Shown one piece after another: positions 3,022 through 12,186 of a stretch of DNA of 33,770 nt. Every line of letters starts with the position of its first letter. Position 1 is the first letter of the stretch. This DNA is from Sphingobacteriales bacterium (lineage in GTDB: Bacteria; Bacteroidota; Bacteroidia; Sphingobacteriales; Sphingobacteriaceae). The position numbers and the translations under genes were made by a program. The stretch is taken from contig JAAFJW010000019.1 of NCBI GenBank assembly GCA_013298995.1, forward strand, positions 1 to 33,770, written 5' to 3'. A model generated the notes under the pieces. That model was not told the DNA's origin, did no database searches, and saw only the letters and a list, made by a program, of their open reading frames with translations.

Positions 3022-4202
3022 CTTTGTTTTTTGTAAATGATTACCTCAAAATGGGTTGGTTGGTTAATTATAAAATCGGCGGGTAAGTTACCATTTTTTT
3101 CTAACGCCTTTTTTGCTTTCAAAATCCCAACATTAAAAGCATTCATATAACCTAAATTTTTAACCGCTTCGGCTAATACTGGATTTCTATAATCGTTTTT
3201 AAAAGGAAAGTTTTCTTGCGTTACAGAACCATAAAGCCCACCAGGATTGCTAATTTCAACCCTATCATCAAATTCGTAAAATTTAATTGGGGCATTAGAT
3301 TGATAATCTTTGTGTATTATGGCATTAACTAGCAACTCTTTAAATACAGTATGGGGATAGTTGTACACATAATCACCACCTAATTCGGGCAAAACCATTT
3401 TTACTACTTGTGTTTTAGCAAATTCGTCGATTACTTTTAATTGAGTAGTTAAGTCTCCTTCAAATTTTCTTTCAAAATCAAAATCACTTGTAATATCGGG
3501 TCCTTGGAATTTTACATACTGAACATAAGCACCAGAAATAAAAAATCGAGGATTAGTACCAAACATCAATATAGCAGCATTAGTAGGGCAATCGGCCTTT
3601 AAATCATAAAATTTTAAGGAGGCTAACTGCTCTTTGATTTCTCGGCCATTGGCTAATAATGTATCCTCGTCAATGGCTGTAGGCAAATAAATAAGTTTAA
3701 AAATTTCAATACTCATATCATTTAAGTTGCTACCATAACAAGGTAAGGTATCCCAAGATGAAGCAAAAGAACTTCTTTTTTCGCTCAATATCCGTTCTTC
3801 AACATCGGTGGCATAGCCTTTTCGGGGGCCAATTCTTATACACACTTTTCCTTTAAACCTTGCTGGTGGCAAAAAACTAGGCTGCACCTCTGCTACCGCT
3901 ACATAACCATCAGGGTATTCAAAACCTGATACTACAATAACTGGCGGCGGCACTATTCGGCCATCGGTTCTAAAATCCATTAGCGTTTGCAATATTCTTT
4001 CGTCTCTAGCCAATCCACACCTGCTTCCATCATCATTTACTCCTACAATTAAATAGCCTGGTTTGTTGTGGGCAGGAAAATCATTACAAAACGAGCAGAT
4101 TGCTTCGCCAAATTTGGTAGCATCATTGGTAGAAATTGTTTTTTCTACGCTATCCTGCTCTGTATCTGCTAATAATTTATCTAATTCCTGTTTCGCTATC
4201 AT
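3018..4202 (-). CDS. AlbA_2 (Schlafen-type) domain plus HATPase_c_4 protein
   Basis: A 394-residue protein often named 'ATP-binding protein' or 'RecG-like C-terminal domain protein', although it has no helicase motor. Residues about 15-125 form an AlbA_2/Schlafen-like nucleic-acid-binding fold, including the YLIVGVNDDG strand-turn and the VCIRIG strand. Residues about 285-390 form a GHKL/HATPase_c_4 domain: the N-box is NAIIHKDY at 293-300 and the glycine-rich ATP lid follows at EISNPGGL, 316-323. Proteins of this build occur as regulators and in phage-defence neighbourhoods; the function is inferred, not known. It is the first gene of a two-gene unit with the ParA-type ATPase (4-nt overlap). 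A 175-bp gap separates it from the upstream thioesterase, suggesting its own promoter (see 4207-4214). Confidence 0.85.
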   Translation of the reverse strand: MIAKQELDKLLADTEQDSVEKTISTNDATKFGEAICSFCNDFPAHNKPGYLIVGVNDDGSRCGLARDERILQTLMDFRTDGRIVPPPVIVVSGFEYPDGYVAVAEVQPSFLPPARFKGKVCIRIGPRKGYATDVEERILSEKRSSFASSWDTLPCYGSNLNDMSIEIFKLIYLPTAIDEDTLLANGREIKEQLASLKFYDLKADCPTNAAILMFGTNPRFFISGAYVQYVKFQGPDITSDFDFERKFEGDLTTQLKVIDEFAKTQVVKMVLPELGGDYVYNYPHTVFKELLVNAIIHKDYQSNAPIKFYEFDDRVEISNPGGLYGSVTQENFPFKNDYRNPVLAEAVKNLGYMNAFNVGILKAKKALEKNGNLPADFIINQPTHFEVIIYKKQR

Positions 4203-4206
4203 GTTA

Positions 4207-4214
4207 CAAAGTTA
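4207..4214 (-). promoter_or_regulatory. possible -7 box (TAACTTTG) for the AlbA_2/ParA unit
   Basis: On the minus strand the sequence reads TAACTTTG, matching the Bacteroidota -7 consensus TAnnTTTG, with only TAAC between it and the ATG at 4202. Transcription would then start at or next to the start codon, giving a leaderless message. No convincing -33 TTTG lies about 19-21 bp upstream. In AT-rich DNA such matches arise by chance, so this is tentative. Confidence 0.3.
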
Positions 4215-4377
4215 ATTTCTATTTCCGCTTCTTTTTTATCTTTTTATGCAAGTACAATTTTATTTTGAAAATAGATAAGCGCAAAGCAATTTTAATATTT
4301 TAGCACTTTGTTTTATTTACAAAACCATTATTCAACTACGCCTTTTGTATCTTCATCGGATTTTAGGCCAATACGGC

Positions 4378-4773
4378 TTAATCTTTAAACCTATCGGCCG
4401 AGTAAGTGATTTCGGTTTTAAAATGTGGCGTTGGTTTGCCTTTTTCGTCTAGGTTTACAAATACCATTTTTTCGATGGTAAGTATTTTTTGGCGATTTAG
4501 CTTATTACGCACCTCGCAAGTTAAGGTAATAGATGTAGTGCCAAAATGGGTTGCCAGTATTCCCATTTCGATAATATCGCCTTGCCTAGCCGAACTTACA
4601 AAATTAATTTCGGATAAGTATTTGGTAACAATACTTTTATTATCTAACTGGCAAACGGCGTAAATGGCCGCTTCTTCATCAACCCATTTTAATAATACAC
4701 CGCCAAATAGTGTTCCGTTGGGGTTTAGGTCTTCGGGTTTTACCCATTTTCGGGTATGGAAATTCATGTTCAT
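4378..4773 (-). CDS. acyl-CoA thioesterase, hotdog fold
   Basis: A 131-residue single-hotdog-domain thioesterase of the YciA/cytosolic acyl-CoA hydrolase type, which cleaves acyl-CoA to free acid and CoA. The family block NPNGTLFGG followed by WVDEEAA is at residues 17-36, with D32/E33 in the position of the catalytic acid. The later SARQGDIIE and SITLTCEVRN strands complete the fold. Two candidate starts (codons 1 and 3, both ATG) differ by two residues; the first is used here. It follows yraN by 34 bp on the same strand and probably ends the dnaG-yraN-thioesterase transcript. The substrate range is not readable from sequence. Confidence 0.88.
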   Translation of the reverse strand: MNMNFHTRKWVKPEDLNPNGTLFGGVLLKWVDEEAAIYAVCQLDNKSIVTKYLSEINFVSSARQGDIIEMGILATHFGTTSITLTCEVRNKLNRQKILTIEKMVFVNLDEKGKPTPHFKTEITYSADRFKD

Positions 4774-4807
4774 AACTTCAATATTTTATTAATTTAAGAT
4801 TAGCCTA

Positions 4808-5176
4808 TTAAATGCCATAATCCCAAAAAGCATCTTCAATATGGTTAAGTTTATACTCGGTAGCATTGGTAAACAAAACGCTAATAATATCGAACCTAAT
4901 TTCGCCTTTATGGTCCATTAAATGTATGTACTCGCCAGCGGCTTGGGTTAATAATTGTTGTTTTTTATCGTCCACAAAATCTTCGGGCTGGCCAAAGGTA
5001 TCGCCTGTACGGGTTTTTACTTCTATAAAAATTATGGTGCTATCTAGGTAAGCAATTAAATCAACTTCGGCTTTTTTATAGCACCAGTTTTGGTCCAGTA
5101 TTTCGTAGCCTTTGCGTTCCAAATAGGCTTTGGCAATAGCCTCGCCATTATAACCTGTATTGTTGTGTTGTGCCAT
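4808..5176 (-). CDS. yraN: YraN family (UPF0102) endonuclease-fold protein
   Basis: A 122-residue member of UPF0102, a restriction-endonuclease-like (PD-(D/E)XK) fold predicted to act on DNA; biochemical function is poorly defined. The conserved GE at residues 11-12, the EVD at 37-39 and the EVKTR core at 52-56 form the expected nuclease-like motif with D39, E52 and K54. Length is normal for the family. The start is fixed by context: its ATG shares one base with the TAA stop of dnaG (TAATG), so it is translationally coupled to dnaG. Location next to the primase fits a housekeeping DNA-transaction role, but that is inference. Confidence 0.9.
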   Translation of the reverse strand: MAQHNNTGYNGEAIAKAYLERKGYEILDQNWCYKKAEVDLIAYLDSTIIFIEVKTRTGDTFGQPEDFVDDKKQQLLTQAAGEYIHLMDHKGEIRFDIISVLFTNATEYKLNHIEDAFWDYGI

Positions 5177-7170
5177 TATTTAATAATTACCGAGCCTAAA
5201 TAATTGGAAATATATTTTTCTACCTCTTTTAATTGTAGGTATTCTTTCATTAACTGCAGTTCTTGTTCGTTGCTGTTATCTGCTTGTAATTGTTTTTGTT
5301 TGGTGGCAATCATTGTGGCAATTTTTTTCTTTTTTAAGTGAAAAATGGCTCCCATAATGGTAGCTTTTAGGTTTACTTTTTCGTCGGGTACGTTTATATG
5401 GTGCATATCGTACCAATTGGCACTTAGCATATAAGGCGATGATATTAAGCTTATTACTAAATCTTTGAGTTCTTTATCGGGATGCTGAATCAACGTTTTT
5501 TCGGTGGGCATAATGCCTTTATCTAACTCATCGTGGTAATAAGTGATAATGCGTTCGCACAATTTATCGTTAAAGCTAATATCGCTAAGGTTGGTAATAA
5601 TATAAGGGCCTATGTAGGTATCGGTCATCCCATCCCAGTTTACCAGTTGGTCGCCATAGCTTATCAAAACCCGTATTAATTCCCGCTCTTGGTATTCATC
5701 TGTTATTGGGCTTCGGGCTTCGGGCTGTGGGCTATCGGGCTCTATTGCTGCGGGCAGCGGGCTGTCGGGCAACGGGCTATCGGGCAACGGGCTGTCGAGC
5801 TGTGGGCTATCAGGCAACGGGCTGTCGGGCTGCGGGCTACGGGTTGCGTTATAAACTTTTTTGGCTTTTGTTAATTTTATGTTGTTGAGTTCGGCTATTA
5901 AAATGCGTTCTTCAACGTTAAGCAAGGCACTACACTCTCGCACAAAAACCGAAGCTTTTATGGCATCGGGTATTTTAGCAATGCTTTCGATAATATCCCT
6001 AATTACAGCTGCTTTTTTAATTGGGTCGTTGGTGGCTTCCTTTAGCAGGATTTGGGTTTTAAAAAAAATAAAATCTTGTTGATGTAATTCGATATGGGTT
6101 TTAAATGCCGCCGAACCTAGTTTTTGTATGTACGAATCGGGGTCGTGGCCTTCGGGAAAAAGTACTACTTTGGCATTTAAGCCTTCCTCCAAAATCATAT
6201 CTAAACCCCGCAACGATGCTTTTATGCCCGCCGCATCGCCATCAAACAGTATGGTTACGTTTTTGGTAACCCTAGCCATTATCCTCACATGCTCGGGAGT
6301 AAGCGATGTGCCCGATGCCGCCACCACGTTTTCAACACCTGCCTGATGTACCGATAACACATCGGCATAGCCTTCTACTAGGTAGCAATTATCTACATCA
6401 CGAATCGCTTTTTTGGCCTGAAACAAGCCGTACAGTACGTTTGATTTATTGTAAATATCGCTTTGGGGCGAGTTTACATATTTGGGTACGTTTTTATCGG
6501 TTTTTAGGGTGCGGCCACCAAAACCAATAATCCTACCTGTAAAATTATGTATCGGAAACATTACCCGCCCTCTAAACCTATCGTAAACTTTGCCACTATC
6601 GTTTTTTACGCTTAGGCCAGTTTCTTCCAAAAACTCGGGGCGGTAACCATCGGCAATGGCTTTATCTTGTAAAGCTGTCCACTCATCGGGCGAGTAACCG
6701 AGTTCAAATTTTTTGATAATATCATCCCTAAAACCACGCTCTCTAAAATAACTTAGGCCAATAGTTTGCCCGCTTGGGCTGCCCCACATGGTTGTTTCAA
6801 AAAACTTGGCGGCATAGTTGGTAATAATGTATAGGCTTTCTCGCCTATCTACTTGGGCTTGGTATTCGGGTGTGATTTCGCTTTCTTCAATCTCAATATT
6901 GTATTTTTGGGCTAAGTATTTTAGGGCTTCGGGGTACGCATATTTTTCGTGTTCCATTACAAAGCTAATGCTATCGCCACCTTTACCACAGCCAAAACAT
7001 TTATAAATACCCTTGCTGGGCGATACATTAAACGAAGGCGATTTTTCGTTATGGAAGGGGCAAAGCCCTATCATACTTGTTCCTCGTTTTTTTAGTTGTA
7101 CAAAATCGCCCACAACCTCCTCTATTAAAGCGGTTTCTACAATACGGTCGATGGTTTCTTTCTTAATCAT
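5176..7170 (-). CDS. dnaG: DNA primase DnaG, with a repeat-filled linker
   Basis: Replication primase of 664 residues that makes RNA primers and contacts the replicative helicase through its C-terminal domain. The CHC2 zinc finger has C37, H40, C58 and C61. The primase core contains the RGRVMFPI and IIGFGGR blocks at 200-220. The TOPRIM domain has E266 (VEGYAD) and D310/D312 (LFDGDAAG). Residues 444-488, between the catalytic core and the C-terminal helicase-binding domain, are a run of PDSPLPDSP-type units encoded by a GC-rich 15-nt minisatellite (5707-5841). The repeat keeps frame, so the enzyme should be functional. It is the first gene of a minus-strand run with yraN and a thioesterase. 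The ATG at 7170 sits just before KKETIDRIVE, the normal N terminus. Confidence 0.97.
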   Translation of the reverse strand: MIKKETIDRIVETALIEEVVGDFVQLKKRGTSMIGLCPFHNEKSPSFNVSPSKGIYKCFGCGKGGDSISFVMEHEKYAYPEALKYLAQKYNIEIEESEITPEYQAQVDRRESLYIITNYAAKFFETTMWGSPSGQTIGLSYFRERGFRDDIIKKFELGYSPDEWTALQDKAIADGYRPEFLEETGLSVKNDSGKVYDRFRGRVMFPIHNFTGRIIGFGGRTLKTDKNVPKYVNSPQSDIYNKSNVLYGLFQAKKAIRDVDNCYLVEGYADVLSVHQAGVENVVAASGTSLTPEHVRIMARVTKNVTILFDGDAAGIKASLRGLDMILEEGLNAKVVLFPEGHDPDSYIQKLGSAAFKTHIELHQQDFIFFKTQILLKEATNDPIKKAAVIRDIIESIAKIPDAIKASVFVRECSALLNVEERILIAELNNIKLTKAKKVYNATRSPQPDSPLPDSPQLDSPLPDSPLPDSPLPAAIEPDSPQPEARSPITDEYQERELIRVLISYGDQLVNWDGMTDTYIGPYIITNLSDISFNDKLCERIITYYHDELDKGIMPTEKTLIQHPDKELKDLVISLISSPYMLSANWYDMHHINVPDEKVNLKATIMGAIFHLKKKKIATMIATKQKQLQADNSNEQELQLMKEYLQLKEVEKYISNYLGSVIIK
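5707..5841. repeat. 15-nt minisatellite inside dnaG
   Basis: About 135 bp of degenerate tandem repeat. The plus strand shows reiterated CGGGCTGTCGGGCAA and CGGGCTATCGGGCAA units, encoding (L/Q)P(D)SP pentapeptides on the minus strand. Unit variants keep the reading frame, and GC content is clearly above the surrounding sequence. It breaks down into less regular GGGCTTC and GGGCTGT units at the low-coordinate end. Confidence 0.85.
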
Positions 7171-7549: not shown

Positions 7550-9223
7550 ATGGCAGAAACCACAGATTATAATTTAAAAGGAGCATTAAAAAAACTGTTT
7601 CAATTAATTAATATTGAGCGCAAAGAAATTACAAATATTTACTTTTTCGCCATTGTTTCGGGCTTAATACAGTTATCGTTACCGCTAGGCATACAGGCTA
7701 TTGTGGGTTTATTATTTGGCGGTTTGGTTTCGGCATCGCTGGTGGTGCTTATTAGCTTTGTGGTAGTGGGTGTGTTATTTAACGGTGTATTTCAGATTAT
7801 GCAAATGCGTGTAACCGAGCGCATACAGCAGCGTATTTTTACACGTTTAACTTTTTTATACGCCCAGCGTATCCCTAAGTTAGATTTATTAGGGGTTGAT
7901 AATTATTACCTCCCCGAACTTGTAAACCGTTTTTTTGATACAGCAAGTTTGCAAAAAGGTTTATCTAAGCTGTTGCTCGATTTCCCGGCGGCTACCATTC
8001 AAATTATTTTTGGTTTGATATTGCTTAGCTTTTACCACCCCGTGTTTATCGTTTTTGGTATTGCTTTGCTTACTATGGTATCTATGATATTGTATTTAAG
8101 CAGCCCATCGGGTTTTAAAACCAGCATGCAAGAAAGCGACTATAAGTATAAAGTGGCGCATTGGTTGGAAGAGATTTCTCGGGCCATTAAAACGTTTAAA
8201 TTTTCGCAAAAAAATCAAATGCACTTACACAAAACCGACGAACTTACGTATGGATATTTAACATCACGGTCGGCACATTTTAATATATTGGTGTTTCAAT
8301 ACCGCATTATGATAGCCTTTAAGGTTTTAATAACGGCGGCTATGCTTATTATAGGCACTTATTTATTGGTAAACCAGCAAATTAATTTAGGCCAATTTAT
8401 AGCCTCCGAAATCGTTATTATAGCTATATTAAGCTCGGTCGAAAAAATAATTGTAAGCCTCGAAACCATTTACGATGTGCTTACATCTATCGAAAAAGTA
8501 GATAAACTATTGCAAAAACCTAAAGATAACTTAGCCAACACCAACCTAATAAGTACATTTGATTACAACAAACCTTTTTCTATAACTACCAATAATTTAA
8601 GTTTTAGCTACCCCAATAGCGGTGCTATACTTAGTCAAATAAACCTAAGCATACATGCAGGCGAAAAAATATGTTTAAAAGGCGATGAAGGCTCGGGAAA
8701 AACCACTTTATTGCGTGTATTAACGGGTGCTTACAGTGCTTACTCTGGCAATATATCCATTAATAACATACCCCTACAAAATATTAATGCAGATAAATTA
8801 AGGGCCAATATAGCCGTGTTTTTTGCCCAAGAAGAACTGTTTAATGGCACCCTTTGGGATAACCTTACCCTAGGCGATAAAACCCTAGATTTTGATGAAG
8901 TAATAAAAACCTGCGAAATGGTGGGGCTTAAACCATTTTTAGAACAAAAGCAAGACGGCTTTAATACCATGTTAGATTCGCAAGGCCGAAAACTAGCCAA
9001 CAGTACCGTTCAAAAAATATTATTGGCAAGGTGCTTTTTGTATCACCCATCATTACTGCTATTAGAAAACGGATGGAGCGGTATAGAGAGCGAATACCGC
9101 CAAAAAATCATCAAAAAGCTAATAGAGGATAAAAGTTTTACCCTAATAGCAGTTTCTGATTTAAACGATTTTAGCGCACAATGCGATAAAATAATTACAC
9201 TAAGTAAAGGTAAAGTTGTATAA
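7550..9223 (+). CDS. ABC transporter, membrane domain fused to a degenerate ATPase (type I secretion-like)
   Basis: A 557-residue half transporter in the layout of HlyB/LapB-type exporters but without an N-terminal C39 peptidase. Residues 25-310 are the ABC transmembrane domain with about six hydrophobic segments. Residues 340-557 are the nucleotide-binding domain. Walker A is intact (GDEGSGKT, 378-385) and the Q-loop has Q427. The other motifs have diverged: the signature LSGGQ is LANST (482-486), the Walker B Asp is E506, the catalytic Glu is N507, the D-loop is SGIE, and the switch His is D537. It may bind ATP but hydrolyse it poorly, or need a partner NBD. It lies 3 bp upstream of an HlyD gene, followed by a TolC gene, so the three probably form one trans-envelope exporter. 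Substrate unknown. Confidence 0.9.
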   Translation: MAETTDYNLKGALKKLFQLINIERKEITNIYFFAIVSGLIQLSLPLGIQAIVGLLFGGLVSASLVVLISFVVVGVLFNGVFQIMQMRVTERIQQRIFTRLTFLYAQRIPKLDLLGVDNYYLPELVNRFFDTASLQKGLSKLLLDFPAATIQIIFGLILLSFYHPVFIVFGIALLTMVSMILYLSSPSGFKTSMQESDYKYKVAHWLEEISRAIKTFKFSQKNQMHLHKTDELTYGYLTSRSAHFNILVFQYRIMIAFKVLITAAMLIIGTYLLVNQQINLGQFIASEIVIIAILSSVEKIIVSLETIYDVLTSIEKVDKLLQKPKDNLANTNLISTFDYNKPFSITTNNLSFSYPNSGAILSQINLSIHAGEKICLKGDEGSGKTTLLRVLTGAYSAYSGNISINNIPLQNINADKLRANIAVFFAQEELFNGTLWDNLTLGDKTLDFDEVIKTCEMVGLKPFLEQKQDGFNTMLDSQGRKLANSTVQKILLARCFLYHPSLLLLENGWSGIESEYRQKIIKKLIEDKSFTLIAVSDLNDFSAQCDKIITLSKGKVV

Positions 9224-9226
9224 TTT

Positions 9227-10576
9227 ATGTTCTCCAAAGATAATATAGAAACAGATAATTGTGATGCGTTTAAATCGTTTCGTAAAACGATGGAACCAAG
9301 CCATCATACAAAAAAAATAAAATGGATTTTGGGCGTGTTTATAGGCATTATATGCACCCTATTTTTACCGTGGACACAAAATATACAATCCCGAGGCGAA
9401 GTATCAACCCTAAATCCCGAGCAACGCCAGCAAGAAATAAACTCCATTATAGCTGGCCGAATTGTAAAATGGTATGTGCAAGATGGCGACATGGTAAATA
9501 AAGGCGATACCATTTTACAAATTACCGAAATTAAAGACGACTATCTGGACCCGCAACTTACCCAGCGTACCGCCGAGCAGTTAAAAGCCAAAGCCAATGC
9601 CACCCAATTTTATAAAGATAAAGTAGGCCAAGCCGATAAACAACTTGTGGCAATGACGCAAAGCCTGAACCTTAAAATGGAGCAGCTACGCAACAAGGTA
9701 AAGCAATATACCCTGCAAGTACAATCGGATAGTATGGCCATGATAGCAGCCAATAACCAACTAAAAATTGCCAACGAACAGCTAAAACGCCAAAAAGAAA
9801 TGTTTGATGCTGGCCTAAAATCGCTTACCGAATTTGAGCAACGCCAGCAATTGTTTCAAGAAAGCTTGGCAAAAAAAATAGCTTCCGAAAACAAATTTTA
9901 CAACGGCAAAAACGAACTCCTAAACATAAAAATAGACCTATCAGCAACTACACAGGACTATGCCGAAAAAATATCGAAAACCACTGGCGATAAATTTACA
10001 GCACAATCACAAGCCGCAACAGGCGAAAGCGAAGTAGCCAAACTTAACAATCAACTGGCTAATTATAAGCTACGTAAAGGCTTTTATTTTATACTAGCCC
10101 CACAAAATGGCCAAGTATTACAAACCATAAAAGCAGGTATTGGCGAAACCGTAAAAGATGGCGAAAAACTACTCGCCATTGTACCCCTTAACTTTAGTAA
10201 AGCCATAGAAATATATGTAAACCCCATTGATTTACCCCTAATAAGTAAAGGCGAGCATGTACAAATACAATTTGATGGTTTCCCGGCCATTGTTTTTTCG
10301 GGCTGGCCACAAGCATCGTACGGTTTATTTACAGGCACAATAGCCGCCATTGATAATAATATTGATGCCACAGGTAAGTTTAAGGTATGGGTTAAACCCG
10401 ATTTTAGTACCAAAGCTTGGCCATCGTCACTTAAACTAGGCACAGGTTGCCAAACCATAGCCCTGCTAAACAACGTACCTATATGGTACGAAATGTGGCG
10501 ACAACTTAATGGTTTCCCGCCTGATTTCTACGGAAGTAAAACCAAAGATACCAAGCCAGCAAAAGATAAAAAATGA
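9227..10576 (+). CDS. HlyD family periplasmic adaptor (membrane fusion protein)
   Basis: A 449-residue adaptor linking the inner-membrane ABC protein to the TolC channel. A short cytoplasmic N terminus is followed by one membrane helix at about 32-50. Then comes the first half of a lipoyl/barrel-sandwich domain (GRIVKWYVQDGDMVNKGD), a long coiled coil at roughly 110-275 rich in Lys, Gln and Glu, and the second lipoyl half (LAPQNGQVLQTIKAGIGETVKDGE). A beta-barrel region and a Trp-rich tail (WYEMWRQLNGFPPDFYG) complete it. The start is 3 bp after the ABC stop codon and the stop overlaps the tolC-like start by 4 nt (ATGA), so the genes are translationally coupled. Family is certain; the cargo is not. 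Confidence 0.93.
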   Translation: MFSKDNIETDNCDAFKSFRKTMEPSHHTKKIKWILGVFIGIICTLFLPWTQNIQSRGEVSTLNPEQRQQEINSIIAGRIVKWYVQDGDMVNKGDTILQITEIKDDYLDPQLTQRTAEQLKAKANATQFYKDKVGQADKQLVAMTQSLNLKMEQLRNKVKQYTLQVQSDSMAMIAANNQLKIANEQLKRQKEMFDAGLKSLTEFEQRQQLFQESLAKKIASENKFYNGKNELLNIKIDLSATTQDYAEKISKTTGDKFTAQSQAATGESEVAKLNNQLANYKLRKGFYFILAPQNGQVLQTIKAGIGETVKDGEKLLAIVPLNFSKAIEIYVNPIDLPLISKGEHVQIQFDGFPAIVFSGWPQASYGLFTGTIAAIDNNIDATGKFKVWVKPDFSTKAWPSSLKLGTGCQTIALLNNVPIWYEMWRQLNGFPPDFYGSKTKDTKPAKDKK

Positions 10577-11967
10577 AAAAATTAATCCTCGTTTTGTTTC
10601 TTTGTACCGCTTATTTTGTTTCGCTTTCGCAAGATAAAACCCTATCGCTAGATGAATATTTGGGAATTGTACAACAATATCACCCCATAGCCAAGCAAGC
10701 ATTTTTGTTTAACGATAAAGCAAAACTAAACCGCCGTATGGCTTTAGGCGGATTCGACCCAAAACTAAGTGCCAATAAAGAACGTAAAATTTTTGATGGC
10801 ACAACCTATTACAACTACTTTACACCCGAAATTAAACTACCACTTTGGTATGGTATTGATTTAAAAGGCAGCTATACCGAGTACGAAGGTGCTTTTGTAA
10901 GCCCAGAAAACAAGGTACCCAAAACAGGGCTAAGTTACCTAGGTTTAAATGTGCCTGTGGGCCGAGGCCTGTTTATCGACGACCGCCGAGCCGCCCTAAA
11001 ACAAGCCCGCATTTACCAATCGGTAGCCCGCAACGAGCAACAAATTATGCTTAACGATTTGTTTTTAGATGCCACCCAAAGCTATACACAATGGTTAAAT
11101 GCGTACCAAAATGTAAAGGTTTACACCAATGCTGTACGCCTAGCCCAAATACGTTTTGATGGCACCAAGCAATTATTTACCAATGGCGATAAACCCGCTA
11201 TTGATACCCTAGAAGCCCTTATTTTATTGCAAACAAGGCAGTTTAAGCTAAACGAATATCAACAGCAATTAAACAATAGCAAAAACGCTTTAACCGCATT
11301 TTTATGGTTGGATAACAACCAAGCAATCGACCCCGAAAAATTACAAATAAACCCCGATTCGCTTGTGTTTGAAACACCTGCCCCAGCGCAATTGCTACAA
11401 ACATTGCCTGCCACCATTGCCCAGCAAAACCCCGAGGTACAAGCCTACGTATTTAAACTGCAAGAACTAGATATAGAACGCCGCCTAAAACTCGAGGAAA
11501 TAAAACCAACTTTAAATTTTAATCTCGGTATATTAAATGCGGGCAGAGATGGGTTTCAAAACTTTAATACACCATATTTAAACAATAACCAAAAATTTGG
11601 CTTTTCGTTTTCCATGCCACTAACCTTTACCAAACAGCGGGCAGCATACAGTTTAAGTAAAATTAAAATACAAGATGCAACCTTTATACTTAACGATAAG
11701 CAAAACCAAATAGCCAATAAATGGCGCAATTACCTAAACGATTATTACACCTTTACCAATCAAATTGCACTTTTTGAGCAAACCCAAGCCAATAACAAAG
11801 CTTTGCTAAGTGGCGAAGAAACCAAATTCAGATTTGGCGATAGCTCATTGTTTCTTATCAACTCTAGGGAACAAAAAGTATTAGAAACCCAAGAAAAAAT
11901 AAACGAACTAAAAGCCAAACGCTTAAAAACCATACAGGTATTAAAGTATTTAAGCAATAGTTTTTAG
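10573..11967 (+). CDS. TolC family outer membrane efflux protein
   Basis: A 464-residue outer-membrane channel subunit of the TolC/OEP family. It starts with a signal peptide (MKKLILVLFLCTAYFVSLSQ) and continues with long amphipathic helices typical of the trimeric alpha-barrel, including the LFLDATQSYTQWLNAYQN and TRQFKLNEYQQQLNNSKNAL stretches. A later KIKIQDATFILNDKQNQIANK repeat matches the family's internal duplication. It is the last gene of the exporter operon and its ATG overlaps the HlyD stop. It would be the exit duct for whatever the ABC/HlyD pair moves. It is followed by a 17-bp AT-rich inverted repeat that may end transcription. Confidence 0.9.
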   Translation: MKKLILVLFLCTAYFVSLSQDKTLSLDEYLGIVQQYHPIAKQAFLFNDKAKLNRRMALGGFDPKLSANKERKIFDGTTYYNYFTPEIKLPLWYGIDLKGSYTEYEGAFVSPENKVPKTGLSYLGLNVPVGRGLFIDDRRAALKQARIYQSVARNEQQIMLNDLFLDATQSYTQWLNAYQNVKVYTNAVRLAQIRFDGTKQLFTNGDKPAIDTLEALILLQTRQFKLNEYQQQLNNSKNALTAFLWLDNNQAIDPEKLQINPDSLVFETPAPAQLLQTLPATIAQQNPEVQAYVFKLQELDIERRLKLEEIKPTLNFNLGILNAGRDGFQNFNTPYLNNNQKFGFSFSMPLTFTKQRAAYSLSKIKIQDATFILNDKQNQIANKWRNYLNDYYTFTNQIALFEQTQANNKALLSGEETKFRFGDSSLFLINSREQKVLETQEKINELKAKRLKTIQVLKYLSNSF

Positions 11968-12099: not shown

Positions 12100-12186
12100 G
12101 CCTGCTCAGGCAGGCATCTTTTCCCCTATCCCTCCCTTTGTAAGGGTAAACTCCAAGCGTGTTTTCTGCCTGCGCAGGCAGAAAAC
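12100..12186. repeat. cluster of three palindromes (REP/MITE-like)
   Basis: Within 87 bp lie three hairpins. The first is GCCTGC-TCAG-GCAGGC at 12100-12115. The second is CCCTT-TGT-AAGGG at 12134-12146. The third is a perfect 26-bp palindrome at 12161-12186 centred on TGCCTGCGCAGGCA with TTTTC/GAAAA flanks. The first and third share the GCCTGCnCAGGCA core. GC content is well above the surrounding AT-rich sequence, between two convergent genes. This fits a REP-type or MITE-type dispersed element. Confidence 0.7.

Follow-up and report, generated by a model that had tools for sequence, protein, structure and literature searches.

A Bacteroidota family of tripartite ABC-type exporters with a degenerate, and in one lineage deleted, nucleotide-binding domain

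ABC exporters are defined by their ATPase, whose catalytic set comprises the Q-loop glutamine, the LSGGQ signature, the Walker B Asp-Glu pair and the switch histidine. An ABC-like transmembrane domain (TMD) without a nucleotide-binding domain (NBD) is found in the SbmA/BacA peptide transporters, which are driven by the proton gradient and are the nearest precedent for some of the proteins described below. The degenerate-site exporters TmrAB, TM287/288, BmrCD and ABCB11 have lost catalytic residues in a site and retain one active site, as outlined in the pertinent part of PMC7756269. A review of tripartite systems treats ABC, RND and MFS engines; in EmrAB-TolC, one such system, an adaptor and TolC are combined with an inner-membrane protein from a class of proton-driven transporters (PMC8277102). 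The fold of that protein (MFS) is unrelated to that of the family described here. Among the matches listed in the open-licence literature, none dealt with this family, with a homodimeric exporter whose two sites are both dead, or with a tripartite exporter that lacks the NBD.

The window, the whole stretch of 33,770 nucleotides analysed here, encodes an ABC-exporter-derived inner-membrane subunit of 557 amino acids (7550..9223, + strand), which consists of a strongly conserved TMD (approximately aa 1-343; 7550..8578, +) and a degenerate NBD (approximately aa 345-557; 8582..9220, +). Both PF00664 (ABC_membrane, 45.3 bits) and PF00005 (ABC_tran, 73.1 bits) are matched above their Pfam gathering scores. 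The gene is followed by those for a HlyD-type periplasmic adaptor (449 aa; 9227..10576, +; Pfam HlyD_3 and Biotin_lipoyl_2) and a TolC-type outer-membrane factor (464 aa; 10573..11967, +; Pfam OEP), so that the three components characteristic of type I secretion are found in one operon. A gap of 3 nt separates the stop of the ABC gene from hlyD, while hlyD and tolC overlap by 4 nt, in keeping with the original prediction that the partners are intact and translationally coupled. Its view that the operon is not decaying also stands, since dN/dS is low for the ABC gene (see below), for HlyD (0.012-0.064) and for TolC (0.064-0.091; three pairs each, the window against its three nearest relatives), and hlyD adjoins the ABC gene in all 93 core loci of the family. 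Two different G+C-rich palindromes occur 3' of tolC, at window positions 12100-12115 (GCCTGCTCAGGCAGGC) and 12162-12185 (TTTTCTGCCTGCGCAGGCAGAAAA), and are possibly terminators or dispersed repeats. On the other side, the operon is adjoined by a gene (5176-7170, - strand) whose product reads as primase-like and contains a linker of repeated PDSPLPDSP-type units.

The window protein shares its fold and the ABC-HlyD-TolC operon with the type I secretion/PCAT exporters (HlyB, LssB/LapB, PCAT1, ComA). An AlphaFold2 model (pLDDT 90.0) has the exporter fold, with PCAT1 as the best structural match (8voz_A, Z 30.2, 545 residues, rmsd 2.4), although TmrAB (Z 30.0) and HlyB (Z 29.3) are to be read as ties, given that Z differences below 1 do not discriminate; members that still have an NBD are thus predicted to retain the exporter fold. 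Unlike these exporters, the window protein has lost the residues of hydrolysis and begins at the TMD, with no N-terminal domain, and some of its relatives have no NBD. It also scores below the cut-offs of the NCBIfam models for type I secretion ABC proteins (TIGR03375, the best-scoring model, 190.8 bits against 693.1; TIGR01846, 142.2 against 725.55). Descent and fold place the protein among the ABC exporters, whereas its mechanism-defining features do not. An extra N-terminal stretch of approximately 150-200 aa is present in L097, L102, L106, L107, L108, L111, L204-L207, L210-L212 and 15 of the 19 deep-branching members of the family, with no Pfam match in the eight members tested. In the deep-branching members it may be a C39-like domain, since the full model of one of them, L122, matches HlyB over 733 alignment columns, N-terminal part included; a second structural look barely covered this part.

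Within the NBD, the Walker A motif GDEGSGKT is intact (aa 378-385; 8681..8704, +), as had been predicted. The same prediction held the Q-loop to be kept, which is incorrect: in the alignment to canonical exporters the glutamine position is occupied by Ala426, and Gln427 is the next residue (8825..8830, +). The remaining substitutions are located as claimed, with LANST in place of the LSGGQ signature (aa 482-486; 8993..9007, +), a Walker B motif LLLLEN (aa 502-507; 9053-9070, +) that ends in E506-N507 rather than Asp-Glu (9065..9070, +), SGIE in place of a SALD-type D-loop (aa 510-513; 9077..9088, +) and Asp537 at the position of the switch histidine (9158..9160, +). In Walker B, E506 stands for the Mg-binding Asp and N507 for the catalytic Glu. 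Ala, LANST, E-N and Asp therefore occupy all four elements of the exporter catalytic set.

Close homologues with canonical motifs, which would have marked the loss as recent, were sought and none was found; the nearest relatives, L001-L003 (82-98% identical to the window protein), lack both LSGGQ and the switch histidine. A scan of contigs yielded 18 loci, all with Bacteroidota titles and with best-segment identities of 46-98% to the window protein, and each of the 18 lacks these two motifs. Profile searches (E <= 1e-100) identified the family in 29 of the 101 genomes covered from the window's bacterial family and, across the phylum, in no fewer than 92 of 395, the phylum-wide counts being lower bounds with three candidates scored per genome; 40 of the 63 phylum-search matches without a locus were fetched as sequence. 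The window gene evidently belongs to a widespread Bacteroidota family. Motifs were scored in 112 members (93 core, 15 and 4 in two deep-branching groups) and 20 canonical exporters, with L001 (98% identical to the window protein), L067 (partial) and L133 (NBD-less) set aside from the counts.

Among the 93 core sequences, the switch histidine is retained in none, the second glycine of the signature in one, the Walker B Asp in three, the Q-loop Gln in 11 and the Walker B Glu in 21, while the Walker A Lys is retained in 92 and the A-loop aromatic residue in 76. The position of the Walker B Asp is occupied by Glu in 77. Both deep-branching groups (15 and 4 sequences) retain the Walker B Asp throughout and the switch histidine in 11 and 4, respectively, and neither has a Q-loop Gln in any member; all six scored catalytic residues are present in 19 of the 20 canonical exporters. 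A tree built from TMD columns only (a quick search with SH-aLRT support and no bootstrap, and with no NBD motif in the columns) unites the core in one group (SH-aLRT 100) and requires a minimum of four changes for the switch histidine, three for the Walker B Asp and one for the Walker A Lys. Because the core forms a single clade with so few changes, the catalytic loss is old and was largely inherited once. One full-length core member, L115 (genome G144; ORF 4018-5673, - strand), has also lost Walker A (aligned YEHPLFVRT) and, judged by this motif, is an intermediate between a dead and a deleted NBD.

Selection on the family falls more heavily on the TMD than on the NBD. TMD identity exceeds that of the NBD in every one of the 4278 core pairs (medians 0.48 and 0.32), against a fraction of 0.05 of 435 pairs among 30 orthologues of a canonical exporter of the window genome and 0.07 of 105 pairs among 15 mixed PCAT/T1SS-type exporters, the pairs in such comparisons not being independent. 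In simple Nei-Gojobori counts, dN/dS is 0.014-0.056 for the TMD (12 of 14 family pairs usable, two not) and 0.033-0.132 for the NBD (10 of 14 usable, four not), with the NBD value the higher in all 10. The NBD is thus constrained, but less so than the TMD, and the catalytic loss in the core is maintained under purifying selection. Twelve TMD residues are family-specific, namely K136, K140, S196, K199, Y200, R240, H243, K258, E287, E298, K299 and K316. K258 aside, they are present in 90-93 of the 93 core and 15-19 of the 19 deep-branching sequences and absent from the 20 canonical exporters, save for S196 in one. Q151 is core-specific and N279 nearly so. Two of the charges lie in the membrane: K258 in the hydrophobic part of TM5, as placed by hydropathy and the model helices (8321..8323, +; Lys in 90 of 93 core members, Arg or Lys in all 19 deep-branching ones), and E287 in TM6 (8408..8410, +; Glu in 92 of 93 core, 18 of 19 deep-branching and none of the 20 canonical sequences). 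These residues mark a conserved function of the TMD that is common to members with and without catalysis. That they form a proton pathway gained when catalysis was lost is unsupported, because E287 and the basic residue at 258 also occur in deep-branching members, which retain the Walker B Asp-Glu pair and usually the switch histidine.

The phylum-wide profile search also returned a first match, L133, that ends where the NBD would begin. It encodes a TMD protein of 332 aa, with Pfam matches to the ABC transmembrane region alone, followed by a stop, by hlyD 66 bases on and then by tolC, with a tetR gene upstream. Matches occur in 76 of the 81 genomes searched of the bacterial family of L133, and in 26 of the 81, from eight genera, the frame is 334-424 aa long and likewise ends at the NBD boundary; two of the 26 (G514 and G546) carry a second, full-length copy as well. 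Twenty-five of the 26 were viewed as loci (22 aligned and three more) and G533 as a table row. In the 22 aligned forms, 16 of the 19 family TMD positions have the window's residue without exception; of the remaining three, position 250 has Phe or Ile in place of Gln, position 298 is Glu in 13 and Asp in 9, and position 308 is Phe in 17 and Tyr in 5. HlyD and TolC follow in all 21 of the longer NBD-less loci, with tetR near in 15, and dN/dS values of 0.004-0.068 (six pairs) indicate purifying selection. Twenty-six genomes in which no NBD sequence lies between the two genes are hard to attribute to a frameshift or an assembly error, and a TMD tree of 41 rows places the deletion as one change. 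Eight full-length kin aligned from the same bacterial family have lost the Ser/Thr of Walker A (Asn or Asp in seven, His in one).

A split or relocated NBD was rejected at the sensitivity of a profile of the kin NBD, which detected no relocated family NBD in the 24 NBD-less genomes covered (G515 and G549 of the 26 were left out) and was positive in all six controls. The full-length control genomes scored 355-422 bits, and in four of the 24 the profile gave weak matches (126.6-131.7 bits), which fall within ORFs of 594-1011 aa. Although the NBD-less members resemble SbmA/BacA in having an ABC-type membrane domain without an NBD, they differ in that they sit in a HlyD-TolC operon. Three NBD-less members gave no match to the Pfam model SbmA_BacA (PF05992) with a limit of E 1, where the HMMER filters drop most matches above E of about 0.1, and the window protein gave none at E 0.001; nor did SbmA appear in a PDB sequence search with a limit of E 10. 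Related genera have deleted the NBD and kept the TMD, HlyD and TolC under purifying selection, so that hydrolysis by an NBD of its own appears to be dispensable in this exporter lineage.

As an overall explanation, we consider it probable that the window protein is the inner-membrane subunit of a tripartite exporter of type I secretion/PCAT descent whose own NBD has ceased to power it by hydrolysing ATP. The TMD dimer itself would be the working part, and the substrate would pass through a TMD-HlyD-TolC conduit by a drive other than ATP; the window protein would not hydrolyse ATP. That ATP hydrolysis of its own is not needed is the part of this explanation held with high confidence. The first-choice drive would be the proton-motive force or the gradient of the substrate itself, the former being put forward tentatively, and K258 and E287 would be candidates for coupling or for substrate contact. 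The tetR gene that often adjoins the operon in the core clade points to a small molecule or lipid that is sensed, rather than a dedicated protein, as the exported substrate. The sequence of events, in which the TMD of an ABC exporter was turned into an ATP-independent (secondary or gated) engine, with catalysis lost first and the NBD deleted later in one lineage, is a proposition on which we are evenly divided. The original prediction had offered an exporter powered otherwise, a gated channel or a heterodimer with a hidden active NBD; the first two are preferred, given that in sister genera the NBD is gone and the remainder retained, and the heterodimer is not supported.

In the window's own lineage the NBD, with Walker A kept, would bind nucleotide without hydrolysing it and serve a structural or regulatory role. 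Nucleotide probably still matters where the NBD survives, since Walker A is retained in 92 of 93 core sequences and the Asp-to-Glu exchange in Walker B is itself conserved. The foremost competing explanation is an ATP-gated channel or binding-only cycle, in which the conduit would open or close on nucleotide binding, with no hydrolysis, and be reset by dissociation. Retention of the Walker A Lys and A-loop aromatic residue in a core that has lost the residues of hydrolysis agrees with such a cycle, as does the observation that ATP binding drives one translocation event in TmrAB, reported in PMC7205462. Yet a lineage devoid of nucleotide sites, the NBD-less one, is itself conserved, and the signature motif that closes the ATP sandwich is lost in the core, so that a binding-only cycle is possible but unlikely for the family, although it could still hold in the window's own sub-lineage. 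It overlaps with the preferred explanation, neither involving hydrolysis, and the two likelihoods are not to be added.

A heterodimer or borrowed motor, in which an active NBD or half-exporter from another locus would serve as the partner, is improbable. Exporters with one degenerate site are common, accounting for 21 of 29 human non-homodimeric ABC transporters in the survey passage of PMC7756269, and the window protein resembles TmrAB, TM287/288, BmrCD and ABCB11 in combining lost catalytic residues with a predicted retention of nucleotide binding. It differs from them in being encoded by a lone gene without a linked active partner, so that a homodimer would have two dead sites. No second canonical half-exporter lies beside the gene in the window's neighbourhood, and among 51 loci with at least 3 kb of flank on both sides another exporter-like ABC gene is near only one. 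LSGGQ neighbours occur in four of the 51 (L096, L128, L130 and L015), of which only the one at L096 is a genuine half-exporter; the neighbours at L128 and L130 read as UvrA-like, L134 (shorter flank) has a similar one, and that of L015 is an ATPase-type ORF of 368 aa. A linked second ABC gene was rejected on these grounds. Further half-exporters are present in the window genome, and five of them were compared, with a sixth (L022, cut by a contig end) left out. They occur in 57, 60, 60, 55 and 51 of 61 sampled genomes, whereas the window-type gene occurs in 16 of the same 61, so they are evidently housekeeping genes, none of which tracks the window-type gene. One of them, L024, was not found in three genomes that carry the window-type gene (G008 and G043, both 76% complete, and G050, 99% complete). 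In the NBD-less loci, another ABC ATPase match lies downstream in two of 21 (L213, +3014 bp; L214, +4511 bp), a point against the preferred explanation. The 24 NBD-less genomes searched contain no matching NBD. A generic NBD acting in trans is possible.

Equally doubtful is a non-transporting scaffold, in which the TMD does no more than anchor and order the HlyD hexamer, or report on its state, while HlyD-TolC is supplied by another transporter. The stronger constraint on TMD and HlyD than on the NBD would fit, as would the three HlyB dimers found with six HlyD in type I secretion according to PMC11026475. Against this, the full exporter fold is predicted, the membrane Lys/Arg and Glu are kept even where there is no NBD, and, apart from the ABC gene, HlyD, TolC and TetR, no gene family occurs in more than five of 59 neighbourhoods (ORFs >= 60 aa). 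The same count bears on a linked protein substrate of the type I secretion kind. HlyD is next to the gene in all 93 core loci and in 12 of 14 and four of four deep-branching loci with enough sequence, L131 being counted as lacking it although a 432-aa ORF sits there; TolC is next in 38 of 38 core, 12 of 13 and three of four deep-branching loci. The deep-branching L119 and L121 have no adjacent HlyD in the available sequence, which in L121 ends soon after the gene, and in L123 (G365) the tolC that lies downstream of the ABC gene is seen as two distinct open frames. A tetR gene lies directly upstream in 49 of 91 core loci, in none of the 19 deep-branching loci and not at the window.

Residual or altered ATP hydrolysis by swapped Walker B acids is very improbable. 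The pair is E-D in 43 and E-E in 20 core sequences (63 of 93), which speaks for such a mechanism, but the window has E-N, the core has no switch histidine and a single second glycine of the signature, and the NBD could be deleted in relatives. The residue exchanged in the HlyB mutant H622A is presumably the H-loop histidine. This His-to-Ala mutant, numbered as printed, shows no ATP hydrolysis in the experiment described in PMC6558041, a result in favour of an inactive core clade. Recent decay or an assembly artefact, for which the fragmented state of the assembly (211 contigs) might speak, was rejected as hardly credible, the loss being common to all 18 loci from other records with dN/dS far below 1.

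Relatives of the window gene occur in seven plasmid records, five of which annotate the gene as 'ABC transporter ATP-binding protein', with no annotation there in the other two; this name probably misstates the energy source. One relative, L181 (NZ_CP081938.1, Riemerella anatipestifer), is in a record labelled as a plasmid that may be a piece of chromosome, since rplU, murB, fabG and rsmI adjoin the operon. Taken along the family, the exporters form a natural series that runs from near-canonical through catalytically dead but conserved to NBD-deleted, with the same kind of TMD and mostly the same HlyD and TolC partners, and this series makes it testable which functions remain to an exporter TMD that has no motor, and what purpose a dead NBD still serves. 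There is a fair chance that the family represents a new class of energisation. If so, an ATP-independent tripartite class would stand beside the ATP-driven ABC, the RND and the MFS tripartite pumps.
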